Both the position numbers and the translations under genes were made by a program. Shown piece by piece: positions 4,896-55,309 of a stretch of DNA of 64,000 bases (positions are counted from its first letter, which is position 1; the number at the start of each line of letters is the position of its first letter). The notes under the pieces are model-generated. The model was not told the DNA's origin. It did no database searches and worked only from the letters and a program-made list of their open reading frames with translations. The DNA comes from Gammaproteobacteria bacterium (GTDB lineage Bacteria > Pseudomonadota > Gammaproteobacteria > Steroidobacterales > Rariloculaceae): the NCBI GenBank assembly GCA_022820625.1, contig JAJEFE010000004.1:1-64000 (forward strand), written 5' to 3'.

Positions 4896-6536
4896 ATGAC
4901 CAAACGCATCCATATTAACCGGCGTAGATTCCTTGCCGGTTCCGCAGGCGCCATGGGGGCGGCGTATTTCGGCAGGTTGCCGCTGGAAGCCATGGCCCAG
5001 GAGCAAGCTCCGACCGATCAGGCATGGGACGCCGGTCTCGTGCGGCATATTATTCCCACGGTCAGCGATACGCGGATTCTGCTCAAGGTCTCGTTCGATC
5101 GGGCGTTGGCGGACGCGCCCGTCTTGCGACTCGAGAACTCCGCCATCGCCGGCAGGATGAGCGACACGGCCGGCGAATACTGGCAGTTCCATGCCGGCCA
5201 GTTGCAGCCGGGGCGTCGCTACACGCTTTCGTTGCAGGACACCAATGGCCAGTCCTTGTGCGAACCCTGGCCGCTCTCCACCTTCCCGTCGCCAACCGCA
5301 GACCCGGAGCGCCTCCGCGTGCTGTTCTATACCTGTGCCGGCGGAACCAGCGGCACCTACGAGGGGATCGGTCAGCGCGAAGGCTTCCTGCCGGCCGGCA
5401 TCCGCAACCGCCTGCTGCGCCGTGCGCTATCGTTTCAACCCGACGCCGCGGTGGCCATCGGCGACCACATGTATTGGGACCTCCACGCCTGGCAGGGCGA
5501 GTACGCCGGGCAATTGAGCGAAGCCGGCCGGATTTCGAACTTCGACTTTTCGGCCAGCGCGCTTGGGGCGAGCAACGAAACGGCGATAAAGGCGGCCGCT
5601 GGCCCGCAAATCGTCCCGATTTACGGGAGCGATTTCCGCTCCACGCCGGTTTTTTTCCTGCAGGACGATCACGACCACTGGGAAAACGACGCGGTCACGG
5701 ACGATTTCGCCAGCTATCCCATCGCCTGGTTCCAGCTTCAGCTTGCGCGGGCGACCCAGCAACTCTACTACCCGGAGTTCCTGCCGGACGCCGGGCGGCC
5801 CGCCGGCCTGCCCTGGTCCTCCGCGGGAGATCGCCGCGACGTGTCGGAGAGCTTCGGCACGCTTCGGTTTGGCCGGCTTGCGGAGATCCTGCTGTACGAC
5901 GTGCGCCGCACCATGAATCTCGCCGGACCGAACGCGCAGTTCGTCGGCCCGCAGGTCGAGCGGTGGTTGATCGACCGCACCCGCTCGTCGGAGGCACGCC
6001 ACCGCGTGCATGTGCCCTCGAATCCGTTCGGCTGGAGTGCCGGCAAATGGGGCGAGTGGTATCCGGACATTCTGGACCCGGAGAGCGGTACGCTGACGAC
6101 CGCCATCGACAAGCCCTATTGGCAGGAGGGCTGGTTGAGGCAGCACGATCGGCTGGCCGAGGCGATGGGTCAGCAGGAAGGCCGGATTCCGTTGCTGGTC
6201 AGCGGCGACCTGCACGCAATCGGCGCCGGGAGAATACACCGCTCCGGAGCCGTCGATCTGCGAGGGAATCCCATGACCGCAGTCCTGAGCGGTCCCATCG
6301 GCACTTCAATCCAGGGATTCCCCTCGGTGATCCGCGGCATCGGTGCGACGCCGCCGGCTCACCTGGACATGGAGGAAACAATGTCGCCCATCGAGGATCA
6401 CGGTTTCACCCTGATCGACTTCCTTCGCGACCGGATCGTGCTGCGGCAGTTTGCCTGGGACGTGGACCGGGAGTCCCTCGATGCCATCGACCGGCTGGAG
6501 CCGATACATACCACGGAACTGGCGCCGGCGGCGTAG
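4896..6536 (+). CDS. PhoD-like Tat-exported metallophosphatase
   Basis: The 546-residue protein begins with a twin-arginine signal (NRRRFLAG then a hydrophobic stretch and AMAQ cleavage), preceded by AGGA. Metal-binding motifs of the PhoD/calcineurin-like superfamily are visible: AIGDHMYWD, the DDHDHWEND block, and SGDLHAIG near the C-terminus. PhoD enzymes are secreted phosphodiesterases or alkaline phosphatases using Fe and Ca. The exact substrate is not readable. It is the last protein gene before the convergent tRNA array. Confidence 0.85.
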   Translation: MTKRIHINRRRFLAGSAGAMGAAYFGRLPLEAMAQEQAPTDQAWDAGLVRHIIPTVSDTRILLKVSFDRALADAPVLRLENSAIAGRMSDTAGEYWQFHAGQLQPGRRYTLSLQDTNGQSLCEPWPLSTFPSPTADPERLRVLFYTCAGGTSGTYEGIGQREGFLPAGIRNRLLRRALSFQPDAAVAIGDHMYWDLHAWQGEYAGQLSEAGRISNFDFSASALGASNETAIKAAAGPQIVPIYGSDFRSTPVFFLQDDHDHWENDAVTDDFASYPIAWFQLQLARATQQLYYPEFLPDAGRPAGLPWSSAGDRRDVSESFGTLRFGRLAEILLYDVRRTMNLAGPNAQFVGPQVERWLIDRTRSSEARHRVHVPSNPFGWSAGKWGEWYPDILDPESGTLTTAIDKPYWQEGWLRQHDRLAEAMGQQEGRIPLLVSGDLHAIGAGRIHRSGAVDLRGNPMTAVLSGPIGTSIQGFPSVIRGIGATPPAHLDMEETMSPIEDHGFTLIDFLRDRIVLRQFAWDVDRESLDAIDRLEPIHTTELAPAA

Positions 6537-6679: not shown

Positions 6680-6757
6680 TGGTGCGCGGCCCCCGATTCG
6701 AACGGGGAAGCAGATCGTTTTGAGCGACCCAGGTATGCCAATTCCCGTCAGCCGCGC
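6680..6757 (-). tRNA. tRNA-Leu(CAA), short variable loop
   Basis: Last gene of the array in transcription order. The acceptor pairs over 7 bp, the T-loop is TTCGAAT, the anticodon loop CTCAAAA gives CAA, A73 and CCA are encoded. The D-arm is Leu-like, but the variable region is only 5 nt; bacterial Leu tRNAs normally have a long variable arm. Confidence 0.85.
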
Positions 6758-6765
6758 ACTTGAAA

Positions 6766-6843
6766 TGGTGGCCGCCCTCGGAGTCGAACCGAGAAGCGCC
6801 TGTTTCTAAGACAGGCAGGTATGCCAATTCCCTTCAGACGGCC
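6766..6843 (-). tRNA. tRNA-Leu(UAG), short variable loop
   Basis: Anticodon loop CTTAGAA with a perfect 5-bp stem, A73, CCA encoded. As in the neighbouring Leu(CAA), the D-arm is Leu-like while the variable region is 5 nt. The two Leu genes share D-arm and variable-region sequence and look like duplicates. Confidence 0.87.
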
Positions 6844-6847
6844 GTGA

Positions 6848-6926
6848 TGGCGTCCCCGGCAGGACTAGAACCTGCAACCCCCGGGGTAGAAGCCCGGTGC
6901 TCTGATTCCGATTGAGCTACGGAGAC
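6848..6926 (-). tRNA. tRNA-Arg(UCU)
   Basis: Anticodon loop CTTCTAC, G73, CCA encoded, canonical D-arm. The T-loop is TTCTAGT, so the usual purine at position 57 is U. One base separates it from the next tRNA. Confidence 0.82.
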
Positions 6927-6927
6927 G

Positions 6928-7022
6928 TGGTACCCCAGGCCGGATTCGAACCGGCGACCTGCCGCTTATCTGGCGCATCACGGGGTATAAACCCGCCGCT
7001 CTACCGACTGAGCTACTGGGGC
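6928..7022 (-). tRNA. tRNA-Ile(UAU), extended variable region
   Basis: Acceptor, D-arm (GCTCAGTCGGTAGAGC) and T-arm are canonical. The anticodon loop TTTATAC gives UAU for AUA codons. About 24 nt lie between anticodon stem and T-stem instead of about 5. Bacteria usually read AUA with lysidine-modified CAU, so UAU is unusual. A class II-like arm or an insertion are both possible. Confidence 0.7.
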
Positions 7023-7024
7023 CT

Positions 7025-7092
7025 GGGAGCCTGCGGCGCAGGAAATCGCGATAGCGAATTTGCAGCCGTGATCTCCTTCGGCGCAGGCTCCC
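7025..7092. repeat. 68-bp cruciform-forming spacer inside the array
   Basis: A perfect 11-bp inverted repeat (7025-7035 with 7082-7092) encloses a second hairpin (7043-7061). It is one of two ~70-nt spacers that interrupt otherwise tightly packed tRNAs. It could be an RNase processing hairpin, a REP-like element or a decayed tRNA; no tRNA fold is recoverable. Confidence 0.6.
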
Positions 7093-7095
7093 GTA

Positions 7096-7170
7096 TGGAC
7101 ACGCCGCCCGGATTCGAACCGGGACCTCGAGGGTTGCAACCTCGCGCCTTGCCCGTTTGGCTACGGCGTG
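7096..7170 (-). tRNA. tRNA-Cys(GCA)
   Basis: Anticodon loop TTGCAAC with a perfect stem, U73 (the Cys identity base), CCA encoded, canonical T-loop TTCGAAT. Confidence 0.93.
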
Positions 7171-7175
7171 TGTGT

Positions 7176-7249
7176 TGGCAGGCCGGCGACGATTCGAACG
7201 CCGATTGGCGGGTCTGGAATCCGCAGTCTTGCCATTAGACGACCGGCCT
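7176..7249 (-). tRNA. tRNA-Trp(CCA)
   Basis: Anticodon loop TTCCAGA. A1-U72 and G73, the Trp identity elements in E. coli, are both present. The anticodon stem has a C-A mismatch at the loop end. Confidence 0.82.
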
Positions 7250-7254
7250 GGGGG

Positions 7255-7329
7255 TGGCTCGGCGCCCTGGATTTGAACCAGGTCCCCAAGATTCAAAGTC
7301 TTGTGTCCTGCCGGTTAGACGAACGCCGA
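7255..7329 (-). tRNA. tRNA-Gln(UUG)
   Basis: Anticodon loop CTTTGAA with a perfect stem, U1-A72 and G73 as in E. coli tRNA-Gln, T-loop TTCAAAT, CCA encoded. Confidence 0.92.
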
Positions 7330-7334
7330 ATGGA

Positions 7335-7411
7335 TGGCACGGCTGGGGCGATTCGAACGCCCGTCCTCGACCGTCGCAGGGTCGCGCTCTCGTCCTCTGA
7401 GCTACAGCCGT
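7335..7411 (-). tRNA. tRNA-Arg(GCG)
   Basis: Anticodon loop CTGCGAC with perfect anticodon and acceptor stems, G73, CCA encoded. GCG is unusual because bacteria normally read CGN with an inosine-modified ACG tRNA. Confidence 0.87.
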
Positions 7412-7416
7412 ACGTG

Positions 7417-7492
7417 TGGTTGCCCGAGGCGGTTTCGAACCACCGACATCCGCTTTGTAAGAGCGGCGCTCTGCCATCTGAGCTATCGGGCA
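7417..7492 (-). tRNA. tRNA-Val(UAC)
   Basis: Anticodon loop CTTACAA with a perfect stem, T-loop TTCGAAA, A73, CCA encoded, canonical D-arm. Confidence 0.93.
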
Positions 7493-7496
7493 AACA

Positions 7497-7567
7497 TGGT
7501 AGCGGGGGCCGGATTCGAACCGGCGGAAGCGGGAATATGAACCCCGCGTGAGACCCCCTCCCCCGCA
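7497..7567 (-). tRNA. tRNA-Met(CAU), minimal D-arm
   Basis: Anticodon loop TTCATAT and a normal T-arm with TTCGAAT, A73 and CCA. Positions 8-25 amount to only about 14 nt, with a 3-bp D-stem and a loop of about 5 nt, so the usual GG of the D-loop is reduced. Positions 1 and 72 (U-U) are unpaired and the anticodon stem is G/C-rich, both reminiscent of initiator tRNA. It may be degenerate. Confidence 0.65.
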
Positions 7568-7579
7568 TCGGGACAAGTG

Positions 7580-7655
7580 TGGTGCGGCTGGCCGGTCTCG
7601 AACCGGCGGCCTCGACGTTGGCAACGTCGCGCTCTGCCCGCTGAGCTACAGCCGC
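7580..7655 (-). tRNA. tRNA-Gly(GCC)
   Basis: Anticodon loop TTGCCAA with perfect anticodon, acceptor and T-stems, CCA encoded. The discriminator is A73, where bacterial Gly tRNAs usually have U73. Confidence 0.9.
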
Positions 7656-7669
7656 ATTGCTTACCTGCG

Positions 7670-7743
7670 TGGTCCGCCCTGAGAGAATCGAACTCCCGTC
7701 GCCGGGTTAAAAGCCCGGTGCACGACCACTATGCCAAGAGCGG
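7670..7743 (-). tRNA. tRNA-Lys(UUU)
   Basis: Anticodon loop CTTTTAA with a perfect C/G stem, A73, CCA encoded. The variable region is one or two bases shorter than usual. Confidence 0.9.
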
Positions 7744-7748
7744 ATAAG

Positions 7749-7826
7749 TGGCCTGCCCGGGAAGACTCGAACTCCCGACCTGCTGGTTCGAAGCCAGCCG
7801 CTCTGCTCCTACTGAGCTACGGGCAG
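7749..7826 (-). tRNA. tRNA-Arg(UCG)
   Basis: Anticodon loop CTTCGAA with a perfect stem, perfect acceptor stem, G73, CCA encoded. Confidence 0.92.
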
Positions 7827-7898
7827 GGGCGTGGTGTTGCGGGCAACCGTAAGGCGCCCATTGTTGGCAAGCGAAAAGTGTGCAGTTGCCATTTACAG

Positions 7899-7987
7899 TG
7901 GCGGAGAAGCCTGGATTCGAACCAGGGCAGGACTTGCGCCCCGCTCGTTTAGCAAACGAGTGCCTTAGACCGCTCGGCCACTTCTCC
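7899..7987 (-). tRNA. tRNA-Ser(GCU)
   Basis: A proper class II tRNA with a long variable arm. Anticodon loop TTGCTAA, G1-C72 and G73, CCA encoded. The 72-nt spacer before it (7827-7898) contains a weak hairpin. Confidence 0.93.
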
Positions 7988-7993
7988 GGAAAA

Positions 7994-8070
7994 TGGGGCG
8001 AACCACCGGACTCGAACCGGCATCGGCCAGGGTCACGACCTGGAGCTTTACCAATTAAGCTAGGAACGCC
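7994..8070 (-). tRNA. tRNA-His(GUG), with C33 and acceptor mismatches
   Basis: Anticodon loop TCGTGAC gives GUG, but position 33 is C where U is nearly invariant. C73 and an encoded G at position -1, the His identity pair, are present. The acceptor stem has two adjacent U-U mismatches at pairs 4 and 5. Confidence 0.78.
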
Positions 8071-8076
8071 ATTGTG

Positions 8077-8164
8077 TGGCGGAGGCTGGAGGGATCGAAC
8101 CCCCACGCCCTTCCGGGCATCACGGTTTTCAAGACCGATAAGTACGCCAGCCTTGCGAGCCTCC
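8077..8164 (-). tRNA. tRNA-Ser(UGA)
   Basis: Class II tRNA with a paired long variable arm. Anticodon loop CTTGAAA, perfect acceptor stem, G73, CCA encoded. Confidence 0.92.
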
Positions 8165-8169
8165 GAAGT

Positions 8170-8246
8170 TGGTCTGGAAGGCAGGATTTGAACCTGCGGC
8201 CCCCTGCGTCCAAGGCAGGCGCTCTGCCAGGCTGAGCTACTCCCAG
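8170..8246 (-). tRNA. tRNA-Pro(UGG), copy 1
   Basis: Anticodon loop CTTGGAC with a perfect stem. C1-G72 and A73, typical of bacterial Pro tRNAs, are present. CCA encoded. Confidence 0.92.
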
Positions 8247-8250
8247 AGTG

Positions 8251-8326
8251 TGGTGGACCGGGACCGATTCGAATGGTCGACCGCGCGATTATCGATCGCG
8301 TGCTCTACCTGCTGAGCTACCGGTCC
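8251..8326 (-). tRNA. tRNA-Ile(GAU), with C33
   Basis: Anticodon loop TCGATAA with a perfect stem; position 33 is C, as in the His gene of this array. Acceptor stem perfect, A73, CCA encoded. The T-stem has one mismatch next to the loop. Confidence 0.85.
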
Positions 8327-8327
8327 G

Positions 8328-8403
8328 TGGGGATCCGGACGGGATTCGAACCCGCAATTACGAGGTTGAAAGCCTCGTGGCTTAACCATTCGCCCACCGG
8401 ATC
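8328..8403 (-). tRNA. tRNA-Glu(UUC)
   Basis: Anticodon loop CTTTCAA with perfect anticodon and acceptor stems, CCA encoded. The discriminator is C73 rather than the usual G73. Confidence 0.88.
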
Positions 8404-8410
8404 GTGAAGC

Positions 8411-8486
8411 TGGCGACGCGGACCGGGGTCGAACCGGCACCCTCTGGATCGACAGTCCAGGACTCTGCCTGTTGAGCTACCGCGCC
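8411..8486 (-). tRNA. tRNA-Asp(GUC)
   Basis: Anticodon loop CTGTCGA with a perfect stem, G73 as expected for Asp, CCA encoded. T-loop TTCGACC. It begins the downstream block of 20 tRNAs. Confidence 0.92.
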
Positions 8487-8835
8487 GGGAAATGAACGAC
8501 TGAGACTACATCGTTTCCAGCCACCCTTTGGCGGGAGTACCGGACGCCTTGCCTGGCGACCGTTGCCCGTCTGTCCACGATGGCCCGGCCGAAACCGGCG
8601 CCATCGTAAGCGGCCATGACTGCCTTTTTCAGAGTGTGGCGATTCACTCGTATTGCGCACCTGGTCGGCAGTTCACTTACCGTGAGCCTCGCGGGCTCCG
8701 AATGGGGGCTACCCAACCGTGCGGTGTTCCGCCAAGGTCCGTCCGCTTGCGGCTTCGGGACCGCCGAATTGCCCGGAGGCTTCGGCCTTAAGCCACTTCT
8801 CGGTACGCACCGGGACGCGTCTTTGCGTTTAGTCC
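8487..8835. other. Large spacer in the tRNA array, no gene recognised
   Basis: About 350 bases between tRNA-Asp and the second tRNA-Pro. Open frames here lack start signals and protein-like composition. No tRNA fold is visible on either strand. It could be the site of a decayed block of tRNAs or an insertion. Confidence 0.55.
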
Positions 8836-8907
8836 TGGTTGCCATTACCGGACTCGAACCGGCGCCATCGCTTCCAAGGCGACGCTCTACCACTGAGCTA
8901 AACAGCA
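8836..8907 (-). tRNA. tRNA-Pro(UGG)-like, copy 2, divergent
   Basis: Anticodon loop CTTGGAA gives UGG. T-loop TTCGAGT, canonical D-arm, A73 and CCA. The acceptor stem starts with U1-A72 and has wobble pairs, so it lacks the Pro identity pair seen in copy 1, and the variable region is only 3 nt. It stands alone between two large spacers. The amino acid it accepts is uncertain. Confidence 0.75.
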
Positions 8908-9384
8908 AGAACCCCATTTCGACGTGCGCGCCCCGGTCGCTTCGCCGCCTTTTGGGCCGCGAAATACGACACGCCGACTGTCGTTCCCCTACCGGGTACT
9001 TGACCGAGTGCCAGGACGCCGGCTGCGCACCGGAACCCCGAAACTCTGCGCGCTCGCGCTCGCTTGTAAGGCTCGCACTATCGCGCACTACCCGTTGCCC
9101 TTCACGGTTGACGATGTCGGTACCGCGGGTTGCACCACCACGTGTTCTTTCACGAGCCTGCATTCCCGGCAGAGCCGGTGCTTGAGCCACGCTACTTCCG
9201 CGCATCGCTTGGCCGCTATCCCCGCCGGTCTCCCGGCGAGGACAAGAGGGTCGGGCCTGCCTGGATTGACCGAACCCGAAAGTTCGGCGGGACGCCATGG
9301 GTCACGCCCCTTTCCCGCCGTTACCGACGGTTATCGGCGCCAGGCCGCAAGTCACCGCACCGGCCGAAGCCGGGGCCGTGAGGT
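8908..9384. other. Large spacer in the tRNA array, no gene recognised
   Basis: About 480 bases between the isolated Pro tRNA and tRNA-Ala. Several short G/C-rich inverted repeats occur, but nothing resembling a tRNA, protein gene or mobile element. Confidence 0.55.
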
Positions 9385-9460
9385 TGGTGGAGGACCGCGG
9401 ATTCAAACCGCGCACCTTCCGGTTGCAAACCGGATGTTCTGTCCACTGAACTAGTCCCCC
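9385..9460 (-). tRNA. tRNA-Ala(UGC)
   Basis: Anticodon loop TTTGCAA with a perfect stem, A73, CCA encoded. The acceptor stem carries the G3-U70 wobble pair, the main alanine identity element. Confidence 0.93.
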
Positions 9461-9466
9461 GCTGAC

Positions 9467-9541
9467 TGGCTGGCACGGCTGGATTCGAACCCGCATCGTC
9501 CCGGTTAACAGCCGGGCGCTCTACCGTTGAGCTACATGCCA
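9467..9541 (-). tRNA. tRNA-Asn(GUU)
   Basis: Anticodon loop CTGTTAA with a perfect stem, U1-A72 and G73 as in E. coli tRNA-Asn, CCA encoded. One mismatch in the T-stem. Confidence 0.9.
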
Positions 9542-9543
9542 CC

Positions 9544-9619
9544 TGGTGGATCGGGAAGGAGTCGAACCTCCGCTGCGCCGGGCTTCAACCGACCGCTCTG
9601 CCGTCTGAGCTACCGATCC
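9544..9619 (-). tRNA. tRNA-Phe(GAA)
   Basis: Anticodon loop TTGAAGC, perfect acceptor stem, A73, CCA encoded, T-loop TTCGACT. Confidence 0.92.
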
Positions 9620-9624
9620 GATTT

Positions 9625-9709
9625 TGGTGGAGGGAGCAGGAGTTGAACCTGCAAAGCCCGAAGGGCGCCTGGGTTACAACCAGGGTATCTCGCCAATGAA
9701 TGCCCCTCC
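9625..9709 (-). tRNA. tRNA-Tyr(GUA)
   Basis: Class II tRNA with a paired variable arm, as normal for bacterial Tyr. Anticodon loop TTGTAAC with a perfect stem, A73, CCA encoded. Confidence 0.93.
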
Positions 9710-9714
9710 GAATC

Positions 9715-9790
9715 TGGAGCTGACGACAGGCATCGAACCTGCAACCCACTGCTTACAAGACAGTTGCTCTGCCATTTGAGCTACGTCAGC
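9715..9790 (-). tRNA. tRNA-Thr(UGU)
   Basis: First tRNA of the array in transcription order. Anticodon loop CTTGTAA, perfect acceptor stem, U73, CCA encoded. The leader lies immediately upstream. Confidence 0.92.
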
Positions 9791-9885
9791 CAGGGTGTCG
9801 GAGCAGGCGCTTGGGCGCACCGCAGGGTCTGCGGCCGCTCCGCACCACGCGAAGCACTGCCCCGACACACTTCACACAATCCACG

Positions 9886-9897
9886 TTGTTAAAGATC
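9886..9897 (-). promoter_or_regulatory. rrn-type boxA antitermination element
   Basis: On the minus strand this reads GATCTTTAACAA, matching the core CTTTAACAA of rRNA-operon boxA, which recruits NusB/NusE and protects long untranslated transcripts from Rho. It sits about 95 nt before the first tRNA, where such an element is expected for a 3-kb untranslated RNA. Confidence 0.7.
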
Positions 9898-9911: not shown

Positions 9912-9944
9912 AAAAAAACCCTGGTGGTTCCGAACCGACCAGGG
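9912..9944 (-). terminator. Intrinsic terminator in the tRNA-array leader (attenuator-like)
   Basis: Minus-strand stem CCCTGGT/ACCAGGG (9938-9944 with 9919-9925) with an additional GGTT/AACC inner pairing, followed by seven T. The 3' part of an upstream element (9954-9959, GACCAG) can pair with CTGGTC at 9937-9942, which would exclude the terminator stem. Its position between promoter and tRNAs suggests attenuation; it could instead end a separate short RNA. Confidence 0.75.
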
Positions 9945-10182
9945 CTTTGGTAGCTGGTCTGGAGGGTTCGTTTTGTCAGCCCTCCAGAACGGTTTTCCGG
10001 AGAGGCTTAACGCATGAGTCCACCATGATCAAACTCATACGAATCCACGCTAATGCGGGTTGTCGTCTGCCGATTCCTCGCACACGGGAGCCCGTCGCTG
10101 GCTATCGCCACGACCGCTTGCCCGGCCGATGAGGCGCCGGCGGCTTCAGACAATCTGAGTTGTATGGATTTCCAAATCATGG
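9912..10182 (-). ncRNA. Leader RNA of the tRNA array (or a separate small RNA)
   Basis: About 270 nt from the predicted start site to the terminator. It contains an 8-bp hairpin (9959-9966 with 9980-9987), the antiterminator/terminator pair, and a 20-codon ORF (9976-10038) whose stop lies inside the first hairpin. That ORF has no strong ribosome-binding site and no run of repeated codons. A 14-nt stretch at 10023-10036 equals the conserved start of 16S rRNA (GAGTTTGATCATGG). No known small RNA family was recognised. Confidence 0.5.
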
Positions 10183-10188
10183 GCGCGC

Positions 10189-10216
10189 AGTATACTCGCC
10201 TTTCTCCCCGTGTCAA
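10189..10216 (-). promoter_or_regulatory. Strong stable-RNA-type sigma-70 promoter for the tRNA array
   Basis: Minus strand: perfect -35 TTGACA (10211-10216), 16-nt spacer, -10 TATACT (10189-10194), followed by the G+C-rich discriminator GCGCGCCC. Such discriminators are typical of stringently controlled rRNA and tRNA promoters. It points at the leader and the 26 tRNA genes. Confidence 0.78.
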
Positions 10217-10351
10217 CACTTAATCGGAACATTCGGTTCACAAAATCGGAACTACCGATTGATGGTAGCCCGTGGCGCGAATCCCAGGGCGTGCCGAGGC
10301 CGGCGGGAGGTCAGGAAGGATGCCCGGCGGCGAGACCCGTGCAAATGGCCG

Positions 10352-10774
10352 CTACGGCTTTCGAACCGTTTCGGGCCGCGATTCACGCACCGACTTGAGC
10401 CAGGACGCCAGATTCCTCTCCTGCTCCGGGGTCAAGTCGAGCGCGCCAGCCATGAAGGCGATCGTGTCGATCACCCGCGCCCGAATCGCCGGGCCTATTT
10501 TTTCGTCGGGCCGCGGGCTGCCTTCTCCGAACAGCAGCCACTGCGGCGTCACGTGCGTTGCCTCCGCGATCGCGATCATGAGCTTGAGGTTCGGGTTGAC
10601 CGGTTCCGAGGTTTCCAGACGGTGCAATCCCGTCTTCGACAGGTTGATTCCCATTTGGGCGAGAATCTTCCTCAGTTCAGCCGGCGCAAGCCCCGAGCGG
10701 TCCCGGGCGTCGCGGATGCGGTTGGAAATGCTGTCGTTCGCGGGTCGAAGCCTGTCGTAGCTTTTTCTCGCCAT
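10352..10774 (-). CDS. XRE-family transcriptional regulator
   Basis: The 140-residue protein carries a helix-turn-helix of the Cro/CI type in its first half (SISNRIRDARDRSG, then the recognition region SKTGLHRLE), followed by a LxxMIAIAEATHVTPQWLLFGEG segment typical of XRE repressors. The C-terminal ~45 residues are a short alpha-helical tail without a recognised domain. The ATG at 10774 is chosen because it starts the conserved part; there is no good Shine-Dalgarno, and a GTG at 10813 is possible. It is the nearest protein gene upstream of the tRNA-array promoter and on the same strand, so it could regulate the array, but no operator was identified. Confidence 0.8.
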   Translation of the reverse strand: MARKSYDRLRPANDSISNRIRDARDRSGLAPAELRKILAQMGINLSKTGLHRLETSEPVNPNLKLMIAIAEATHVTPQWLLFGEGSPRPDEKIGPAIRARVIDTIAFMAGALDLTPEQERNLASWLKSVRESRPETVRKP

Positions 10775-11010: not shown

Positions 11011-11871
11011 TCAGCTCTGGTTCCATTCCACGGGTTCGGCATTCGGGTGCTCGGGTTCGTAGTACCAACGCAAACCCAGCGGTTCCTCGCTGAGGACGTT
11101 GGTCTTGAAGCTTCTCCAGGCCTGGATCTCGAAGTAGTCCAGGGGGCCATCCAGGGCGCGAAGGCGATGGGGTACGCCGGAGGGAAAATACACCAGCGTG
11201 CCTGGCTCGATTTCCTGCACATCGCCTTCCACCTCGACGACGCCGCGGCCCTTGAAGGTCATGTAGCAGTGCGCCGGGCCGTCGGGATTGGCATCGGTTC
11301 CCACGTGGGAATGGTAGGGTGACGACCCGCCGTCGATGTAGTGCATTTCACCCGCCTGTATGGCGTTGGTTGGCGTTAGGCGGCTGCCATCCAGCAGGCG
11401 CACGCTGGACTCGGCGCAGAACCGGCGTACCCGGCCGCCGCTGGCATCGCTGAGCACCCGAAGCGTCCCTCGATCGAAGAAGTATCCGGGGCCGCCGGGC
11501 AAGCCATCTTCAACCGCCGCGGGTGGCTCGGGAACTACCATGTGGAGTAGCTCCACACTGGTTCCCGATGCATCGAACCGAGCCGGTTCGTGAGGCGCCA
11601 GAAGGACGCCCGCGCCTTGCCCGGCGCGGTGAGTCTCGCCTCCGTAATCCACGAAACAACTGACCGGATCGTTCATGACGTACAGGACGTGATAGAAATC
11701 GCCTGCTTGAACGTCAAACTCTCGACCCGGCAGGACGGTTCGCCTGTAAACGGTCAGCGTTTGCGAACCGCAAATGCCGGGACTGCACAGTTTGCGCCGC
11801 ACTCCGGATGGGACGGACTCTGGCTTTGCCATATTCGAATCGATGATGTGAATGTCCTGGATGCTTGCCAT
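11011..11871 (-). CDS. Bicupin protein, possible dioxygenase-associated enzyme
   Basis: The 286-residue cytoplasmic protein has two cupin domains. The C-terminal one shows YHSHVG with two candidate metal-binding His, and a closing GVPHRL; the N-terminal one retains a cupin-like glycine pattern but fewer metal ligands. The ATG at 11871 is preceded by AGG and begins the conserved region. It is divergent from the LigAB-type dioxygenase genes at 12041, which suggests a role in the same aromatic or hydroxy-acid pathway. Exact reaction unknown. Confidence 0.75.
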   Translation of the reverse strand: MASIQDIHIIDSNMAKPESVPSGVRRKLCSPGICGSQTLTVYRRTVLPGREFDVQAGDFYHVLYVMNDPVSCFVDYGGETHRAGQGAGVLLAPHEPARFDASGTSVELLHMVVPEPPAAVEDGLPGGPGYFFDRGTLRVLSDASGGRVRRFCAESSVRLLDGSRLTPTNAIQAGEMHYIDGGSSPYHSHVGTDANPDGPAHCYMTFKGRGVVEVEGDVQEIEPGTLVYFPSGVPHRLRALDGPLDYFEIQAWRSFKTNVLSEEPLGLRWYYEPEHPNAEPVEWNQS

Positions 11872-54436: not shown

Positions 54437-54943
54437 TTACCGATTGAGGCCCAACCGATCATCCTCGTCGATCAACGCGACACGGGCAGGCAGTCGATCG
54501 CCCCAACGCCAGAGAACCAGGTTGACGTCACGCTCGTCCGCGCCAGCGGCGTAGCTACCGACGCGCATGCCCACAAAGCCGGCGGCCATCAAGCGATCGG
54601 CGAGAGCCTGCGATGTGGGCGTTCGCCCGGAAAACATGTCATGTCGCCACGTCGGGCAGTCGATCTCGGCCTGCCGGACGGACAGGGCGGCCCTTGCCGA
54701 CGGGTCGAGCGCATCGAATACCGGGTCCACATCTACCTCATATGCGCACAGGACAAGCGGCTGCATGCGCCGCCCGATCGGGCTCGCCTCGCGGACGGCG
54801 GCCGAAAACGAAAATGACAGGTACAGTGCGGGCAACCCCTGACGGTTGAACCGTCCACCGCGGCGGCGGGCGCCCTCGCCTGACAGGGGCGTCCATGCCC
54901 ATCGCGGGTCATGAGCCCGGTAAACAACGGCTCGAATGCGCAT
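54437..54943 (-). CDS. RES-domain toxin
   Basis: The 168-residue protein has the RES (Arg-Glu-Ser) pattern: VVYRAHDPRWAWTPLSGEGARRRGGRFN at the N-terminus, then ALYLSFSFSAAVREA. RES toxins deplete cellular NAD+. The Xre-type antitoxin gene ends 15 bases upstream, as in known RES-Xre modules. Confidence 0.85.
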   Translation of the reverse strand: MRIRAVVYRAHDPRWAWTPLSGEGARRRGGRFNRQGLPALYLSFSFSAAVREASPIGRRMQPLVLCAYEVDVDPVFDALDPSARAALSVRQAEIDCPTWRHDMFSGRTPTSQALADRLMAAGFVGMRVGSYAAGADERDVNLVLWRWGDRLPARVALIDEDDRLGLNR

Positions 54944-54958
54944 TCGCCGCGAACGAGG

Positions 54959-55309
54959 TCAGGCGTAGCCGCCGTCCAGCACCTGATCGAGGTAGGCATG
55001 AACCATCTCGGCTTTCCCGTCCCGCAGCAGTTGGCAGGGGGTCATGCCGGCAAAGCCCGGCAGGGGTTCGGACCGGAACCAGGCGTAGGCGACCAGCAGA
55101 GAGCCCAGTTCCGCCTCCACGCGATTGAGTATCTCCAGCATCTGCCGCAACCGCATCTGCGTCTTGGGCGCGACGACGCGGGAGGCGCGCGTCAGGGCGT
55201 CGCGGCTCAGCCCCAGGGTGCCAGCGATTTCGGCCCGGGTCGTCTTCAGTTCAGTGGCCACCGCGCCAGGGGAGAAGCCTTCGTCCGTGGCAAAATTCTG
55301 GAGTTGCAT
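54959..55309 (-). CDS. Xre/MbcA-type antitoxin of the RES pair
   Basis: The 116-residue protein has an N-terminal HTH-like region (LKTTRAEIAGTLGLSRDALTRASRV) and the C-terminal toxin-binding part with ELGSLLVAYAWFRSEPLPGFAGMTPCQLL, typical of ParS/MbcA/Xre antitoxins of RES toxins. It is expressed together with the downstream toxin and is expected to autorepress the operon. Confidence 0.85.
   Translation of the reverse strand: MQLQNFATDEGFSPGAVATELKTTRAEIAGTLGLSRDALTRASRVVAPKTQMRLRQMLEILNRVEAELGSLLVAYAWFRSEPLPGFAGMTPCQLLRDGKAEMVHAYLDQVLDGGYA

Follow-up and report, generated by a model that had tools for sequence, protein, structure and literature searches.

The window (the entire 64,000-nucleotide stretch of DNA analysed here) carries at positions 6680–9790 a run of 26 tRNA genes, as identified by ARAGORN, which lie throughout on the minus strand and represent all 20 amino acids. 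With 26 genes in 3.1 kb (~8 per kb), the locus falls within the published definition of a tRNA array unit, given as at least 20 tRNA genes at a density of at least 2 per kb (PMC5966550). The initial annotation had described such a one-strand array with the same count and isotypes, and the 3′ CCA that it reported is indeed encoded in 26/26 genes. Its spacers of 1–14 nt hold for the majority of intervals, with three exceptions of 73, 72 and 898 nt. It overlooked the GOLLD RNA within the array, to which the second tRNA-Pro probably belongs, as well as the predicted translation-gated leader and the paired regulator with its likely operator. The array is laid out as follows.

6680–8486, minus strand: 20 tRNA genes, listed as Asp, Glu, Ile, Pro, Ser, His, Ser, Arg, Lys, Gly, Met, Val, Arg, Gln, Trp, Cys, Ile(UAU), Arg, Leu, Leu
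7023–7095, no strand assigned: 73-nt spacer between tRNA-Cys and tRNA-Ile(UAU), a palindromic repeat with other copies dispersed in the same genome and in relatives
7827–7898: 72-nt spacer
8487–9384, minus strand: 898-nt spacer occupied by GOLLD RNA (whole element ~898 nt; Rfam model match 8497–8977) and containing the second tRNA-Pro
8836–8907, minus strand: tRNA-like domain within GOLLD, read as tRNA-Pro(UGG) by ARAGORN and Rfam
9385–9790, minus strand: tRNA genes Thr, Tyr, Phe, Asn, Ala (ARAGORN)

Covariance-model thresholds, which might have disqualified most of these loci, are passed by 24 of the 26 (Rfam tRNA cut-off, 29 bits). Ser(UGA) is claimed by the related tRNA-Sec model instead of the tRNA model, and Leu(CAA) is missed by Rfam, unlike ARAGORN; Leu(CAA) and Leu(UAG) are both 78 nt long, without the usual long variable arm. 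Because 15–17 of 17 stem pairs form in each gene, and because compensatory changes outnumber broken pairs in comparisons with genomes G014 (16 versus 2) and G025 (33 versus 8), we conclude that the array genes are real folded tRNAs under selection. Rfam also returned weak matches to YrlA, plastid-ycf2 and P6, mostly overlapping tRNAs.

About 40 distinct tRNAs are encoded elsewhere in the same genome, so the array is redundant and is not the genome's sole tRNA set. Where a chromosomal tRNA with the same anticodon exists, its identity to the array tRNA is 52–79%; the stems are nevertheless kept. Dedicated array tRNAs are absent for Gly GGA/GGG and Leu UUA. The earlier proposal of a parallel tRNA pool fits an array that is redundant, is chromosomal and covers 20 amino acids, and the ordinary chromosomal flanks claimed for it are present:

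4896–6536, plus strand: PhoD-like phosphatase gene, chromosomal
11011–11871, minus strand: cupin-domain protein gene, chromosomal

This PhoD–cupin location is kept in three congeners, and between genera the location of the array varies. Slipin genes lie within or adjoin the arrays of nine relatives, and RtcB adjoins that of one (G025). Array-type slipin and RtcB are both absent from the window's genome, which rules them out as parts of the present system; because RtcB is missing, the locus does not belong to the RtcR/RtcB RNA-repair operons. A 75-aa protein encoded in the arrays of two relatives has matches in jumbo phages; of three phage records inspected, one is unannotated, and in the two annotated ones no tRNA gene is annotated next to the match.

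The RNA in the 898-nt spacer matches the Rfam GOLLD model (RF02032) over its full length (1–416; 113.4 bits, E = 4.1e-30) and, like that family, adjoins and contains tRNA. It departs from RF02032 in two respects. All members here, at 99–146 bits, score below the curated gathering score of 150 bits, and the tRNA slot switches anticodon or disappears, being Ser, Gly or Lys in relatives, or missing. Judged by its sequence, the 8487–9384 element is a divergent GOLLD-type RNA and not a curated match, and the second tRNA-Pro is probably the tRNA-like domain of this RNA. The array GOLLD is conserved in 7 genomes. A class-wide Rfam search under strict filters returned this genome alone, a count that is too low because related GOLLDs score under the cut-off.

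Between the cupin-domain gene and the first tRNA lie a regulator gene and an elaborate leader:

10352–10774, minus strand: Cro/CI-type helix-turn-helix (HTH) regulator, 140 aa, directly upstream of the array (HTH_3 match weak)
10227–10252, minus strand: putative operator GTTC-N9-GAAC-N5-GTTC, with 10 bp between its end and the −35 box
10189–10216, minus strand: sigma70 promoter TTGACA-16-TATACT, with a 16-bp spacer in 11/11 leaders
10007–10180, minus strand: leader ORF of 57 codons, with its ATG 8 nt past the −10 box and its stop TAA overlapping strand 1
9959–10007, minus strand: alternative hairpin strands 1 (10007–9999), 2 (9989–9979) and 3 (9970–9959)
9912–9944, minus strand: intrinsic terminator of strands 4 and 5, then 7 T; strand 3 is the alternative partner of strand 4
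9872–9897, minus strand: boxA-like GATCTTTAACAACG and boxC-like GATTGTGTGA of the rRNA-leader type, core kept in 11/11
9795–9868, minus strand: long stem GTGTCGGGGCAG...CTGCTCCGACAC ahead of the first tRNA, a possible processing stem

The same design recurs in 17 leaders, comprising a first set of 11 (from 11 genomes) and 6 later ones found with a covariance model that was built without the ORF. They conserve the sigma70 promoter, short ORF, alternative hairpins and terminator, mostly followed by the rrn-type boxA. The later leaders precede tRNA arrays in genomes G573, G565, G470, G461 (a second copy) and G149; that of G681 has an HTH-like gene upstream of it and lies close to a contig end. 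The leader itself corresponds to no Rfam family. While the array and GOLLD are of a known kind, the leader appears to be new. A pattern scan of viral contigs for one terminator form found no such leader; the lone exact match (L116) was discounted, as it falls inside apparent coding DNA and comes with neither a tRNA nor an Rfam match.

Orthologs of the regulator lie upstream of the arrays in 9 relatives. Wherever the HTH gene is present the putative operator is found too (11/11 loci), and in loci lacking the gene it is absent (0/10); the HTH protein probably modulates the leader promoter.

Comparison of the leaders provides evidence for the folded elements. Hairpin 2:3 together with the terminator shows 98.5% pairing; in 5 of the pairs both partners have changed, and alignment cells with such double changes number 17, versus 6.6 in shuffles (0/500). 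Hairpin 1:2 was assessed from folding. In transcripts ending before the terminator 3′ half, the probability of the 3:4 antiterminator is 0.95–1.00 when strand 1 is free and 0–0.05 when it is masked, in 11/11 leaders. For the window's full-length leader, the terminator has a folding probability of 0.56 with strand 1 free and 1.00 with it masked. On a broader measure, counting any upstream pairing of the terminator 5′ half, this leader does no better than shuffles (difference 0.08, 17/60). At equilibrium the terminator forms either way in 10/11 full-length leaders; hence, the switch must be kinetic. By the predicted folds, termination is favoured when a ribosome sits at the stop codon, and read-through becomes possible when the ribosome has stalled or is missing.

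The leader ORF begins at the predicted transcription start, and in the window its 57 codons encode all 20 amino acids. The ORF stays open from the same start to the same stop in 11/11 first leaders and in the six later ones, where its stop again overlaps strand 1; the G149 frame was confirmed. Chance alone, however, would leave a frame open with a probability of 0.13–0.36 per leader. The six later ORFs contain a larger number of different amino acids than either genome protein windows (P = 2.3e-4) or composition shuffles (P = 0.0023). The richness is modest in any single leader, it was noticed after the fact in the first set, and the six later leaders are partly related to one another. Leaders of the same design that precede an ABC transporter gene have no such excess (P = 0.98, 0.89). 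The amino-acid sequence is not conserved, nor is there an excess of synonymous change; only the frame and its ends are kept.

With its leader ORF, mutually exclusive hairpins and intrinsic terminator, the leader resembles ribosome-mediated attenuators of the trp, his and ilv class. Unlike these, it has no single-codon run and would control tRNAs rather than biosynthesis, and since the ORF stop overlaps strand 1, finished translation would end transcription. As modelled, then, the leader is attenuator-like in its working and not a member of the trp/his type. The trn operon of Anabaena PCC 7120 is likewise a redundant array of 26 tRNAs, with housekeeping tRNAs scattered elsewhere; it is repressed together with a slipin and rtcB, and translation inhibitors induce it (PMC10272220). 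Slipin and rtcB are linked to it there by co-regulation (the TrcR regulon), and to the arrays here by neighbourhood in relatives. The Anabaena operon is carried by a megaplasmid and controlled by the RHH repressor TrcR, whereas the present one is chromosomal, with a helix-turn-helix gene, a predicted translation-gated attenuator and GOLLD; a leader ORF, present here, is not among the features described in the parts of that account available to us. Mycobacterium tRNA array units share the at least 20 tRNAs, the co-located GOLLD and an XRE regulator, but they belong mostly to phages, plasmids and acquired islands, and a leader of the present type is not among their features in the sections available.

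We consider it fairly probable that the locus serves as a backup tRNA operon on the chromosome, whose expression is released by faltering translation. Established here are the anatomy and conservation of the leader, its pair covariation, its predicted alternative folds and the selection on tRNA stems; the events in the cell are our inference. RNA polymerase would initiate at the strong sigma70 promoter and transcribe the short, codon-diverse ORF, which we suppose is translated. A ribosome reaching the ORF stop would cover strand 1, leaving 2:3 to pair and the terminator to form, and the array would stay off; this direction of switching is the predicted one. If the ribosome stalled at any codon or were absent, 1:2 would pair, and the freed strand 3 would pair with the terminator 5′ half, so that polymerase reads through. 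The rrn-like boxA may then recruit a Nus-type complex that carries polymerase over ~3 kb of structured RNA, yielding a near-complete tRNA set, presumably chargeable and unlike the housekeeping tRNAs, plus GOLLD RNA. More tentatively, and with rather less than even confidence, we suggest that the ORF is a general sensor that samples all amino acids: any shortage of charged tRNA would stall the ribosome, open the terminator and release the complete divergent tRNA set with GOLLD and its non-decoding tRNA-like domain.

The array might instead be former cargo of a phage or mobile element, its divergent tRNAs resisting tRNA-cutting defence or toxin enzymes, its leader inherited phage regulation and any host benefit incidental. 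In the accounts available, the typical setting of GOLLD and of tRNA arrays is phages, prophages, plasmids and mycobacterial XRE/HNH arrays (PMC12286853, PMC5966550, PMC9569102), and phage tRNAs can evade anticodon nucleases (PMC10264068). The regulator looks like a phage repressor (PHROG transcriptional repressor, E = 1.3e-9), the tRNAs of the array are foreign to their host genome, and location differs among genera. Against this, no integrase, relaxase or phage structural gene was recognised among 10 Pfam-scanned window proteins or, read by eye, the other genes near the array, and the PhoD–cupin position is shared with congeners. Moreover, the regulator was not found among IMG/VR viral contigs, and the phage collection holds no whole GOLLD, its sole match being a short stretch like the P1 tRNA-Thr gene. 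We judge a cargo origin unlikely, though far from negligible.

Two further readings concern what the operon is for. GOLLD could be the main product, with the tRNAs serving to process the transcript and the operon making an RNA cage, as GOLLD env-38 assembles into a 14-mer cage (PMC12286853). In G014 and G017, both of which lack the five upstream tRNAs, leader and GOLLD are the pair that varies least, yet no Rfam GOLLD match lies beside the same-leader arrays of G573, G565, G470 and G149 in the parts scanned, and the array tRNA stems are under selection; we find this account improbable. A promoter near consensus and an rrn-type boxA could also supply extra tRNAs for fast growth, but a strong terminator stands between the two, and the tRNAs are not copies of the major housekeeping set but divergent from it, which makes this the least credible reading, and a very doubtful one. 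Of the roles first proposed for the array, supply under stress is favoured by the conserved leader and rapid growth is not.

Catalogues of tRNA arrays and GOLLD RNAs go back years, and little is known of what triggers them or what they do. A conserved, compact switch linking expression of the array and GOLLD to the success of translation would give them a testable function, within reach of a simple reporter. If the proposal is true, the leader would be a general sensor of tRNA shortage built from RNA and the ribosome only, and it would account for such arrays spanning all 20 amino acids.

The initial annotation placed 26 tRNA genes for all 20 amino acids, with encoded CCA ends, on one strand at 6680-9790. 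ARAGORN gives the same count and the same 20 amino acids, all on the minus strand, and CCA is present at all 26 genes. The main features are as follows:

6680-9790, minus strand: array of 26 tRNA genes
8487-9384, gap of 898 nt within the array: GOLLD-type RNA
10352-10774, minus strand: gene for a 140-aa Cro/CI-type helix-turn-helix regulator

As had also been supposed, the array is not the sole tRNA set. The host genome (a 4.56-Mb draft of 169 contigs, the window being the first 64 kb of contig 166) holds ∼40 further distinct tRNAs, which makes the array a second set. Where a chromosomal counterpart with the same anticodon was found, identity to it is 52-79%, and no array tRNA exceeds 82% identity to any chromosomal tRNA; the array genes are therefore not recent copies. 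Stem changes between relatives are mostly compensatory, indicating that these RNAs are maintained as folded tRNAs. Two Leu tRNAs are unusual in lacking the long variable arm, and one Ile(UAU) tRNA in having it. A palindromic repeat that interrupts the array at 7023-7095 looks REP-like, with 83-91% similar copies elsewhere in the host genome and in relatives. Inside two relatives' arrays lies a 75-aa protein (phrog_20427; L074 8563-8790, also within L058 15118-15534) homologous to proteins of the jumbo phages XacN1, GAP32 and CBB.

Over its full length, the Rfam GOLLD model aligns to the gap with 113.4 bits (E = 4.1e-30), short of the gathering threshold of 150 bits. The corresponding elements of relatives reach 99-146 bits, and the element aligned across seven genomes spans ∼900 nt. 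The array's second tRNA-Pro sits within it. tRNAs embedded in GOLLD are already known (PMC12286853). In relatives this slot holds Ser, Ser, Ser, Gly or Lys, the Ser versions lack the long arm that a Ser tRNA requires, relative G014 lacks both the tRNA and the sequence directly around it, and the CCA end is missing in several relatives, as read from the alignment. Given these sequence features, we regard the second tRNA-Pro as a tRNA-like domain of GOLLD, which may or may not decode. As a combination, array and GOLLD are a new example of an already known type.

The unit of array, GOLLD and leader recurs in a minority of the order, the named relatives being Woeseiaceae and other gammaproteobacterial metagenome assemblies. 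The leader model matches in 19 of 396 genomes, four or five of which carry an ABC-transporter version only, and the regulator is found in 11 of 296, one match being weak. In three congeners the array has kept these neighbours, with a PhoD gene at one end and, at the other, the regulator together with a cupin gene (in one, G001, the array is divided between two contigs); in other genera the location differs. The four congeners without the array are uninformative as empty sites, since their genomes are small and the flanking gene, too, is missing from them. Elsewhere on the contig are a RES-Xre toxin-antitoxin pair (54437-55309) and a metallo-hydrolase-like ORF (123-581), whose C-terminus is unlike that of relatives (L052 7271-8230) and which is perhaps frameshifted or disturbed close to the contig end.

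We compared the leader, which precedes either the first tRNA or GOLLD, in 11 genomes. Each has a sigma70 promoter (16-bp spacer) and, 8-10 nt past the -10 box, the ATG of an ORF that is 41-63 codons long and whose stop falls at the same aligned position. Hairpins that compete with one another, a strong terminator and boxA are likewise common to all, and most have a long stem ahead of the first tRNA. The ORF frame is open in 11/11, with stops in the other frames in 10/11. The three codon positions have diverged to the same degree, meaning that there is no conservation of the peptide as such. Covariation of hairpin 2:3 and of the terminator exceeds shuffles and slid controls. When the transcript is folded only as far as strand 4 (the terminator's 5' half), the prediction is that 1:2 pairs in 10/11 and 3:4 in 11/11 when strand 1 is free, and 2:3 pairs in 11/11 when it is masked; six later-found leaders are predicted to fold alike. 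A broader folding metric is weaker: the window's own leader is not above shuffles, and most of the distant relatives are. A ribosome at the ORF stop, which overlaps strand 1, would promote termination, and a stalled or absent one read-through into the array. Such a switch would have to be kinetic, since at equilibrium the full-length RNA favours the terminator in most leaders.

The window's 57-codon ORF contains all 20 amino acids; of the first 11 ORFs, five do. Because this richness was spotted after the fact, it was tested on the later leaders, found with a covariance model built without the ORF. In six of these, 40-56 codons encode 18-20 different residues (P = 2.3e-4 versus genome protein windows, 0.0023 versus composition shuffles); kinship among leaders inflates such values, and we take a role for the ORF as amino-acid sensor to be suggestive. 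Paralogous leaders of the same design (L132, L133, L134, L135, L137), with an ORF ending in VFVH or similar, hairpins and a terminator, precede an ABC_membrane_3 gene rather than tRNAs; same-design leaders in this setting use 15-16 distinct residues in 41-44 codons (P = 0.98, 0.89). An ABC_membrane_3-like gene also lies within the tRNA array of G565 (L141 3248-4021). In G269, from another family, a divergent regulator and leader (L147 1830-2474 with L140) stand without a detected tRNA downstream and are perhaps what is left of a decayed unit. We found no description of this putative translation-gated leader in Rfam or the searched open-licence literature and, as far as these show, it is an undescribed part.

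The regulator, encoded directly upstream of the array, is strongly conserved. A tripartite GTTC/GAAC site, a putative operator, is located 9-10 bp upstream of the -35 box in 11/11 loci that have the regulator gene and in 0/10 that lack it. Upstream stretches were examined in nine of those ten, the other, G450, having no promoter match; in G681 the regulator gene was recognised by the C-terminal end of its product, found on reading the sequence ahead of the leader.

Nine arrays of relatives contain or adjoin slipin genes, one adjoins RtcB and one includes an ABC_membrane_3 type gene; Pfam was applied to one protein of each kind (a slipin, an RtcB and an ABC protein associated with a leader), the other neighbours being assigned by sequence likeness. 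Anabaena has a repressed 26-tRNA operon that is induced by translation inhibitors and whose repressor, TrcR, also acts on slipin and rtcB genes (PMC10272220). The array studied here is parallel in context, but its regulator is different. The function of array and leader is one we infer, and this parallel supports a role in translation stress.
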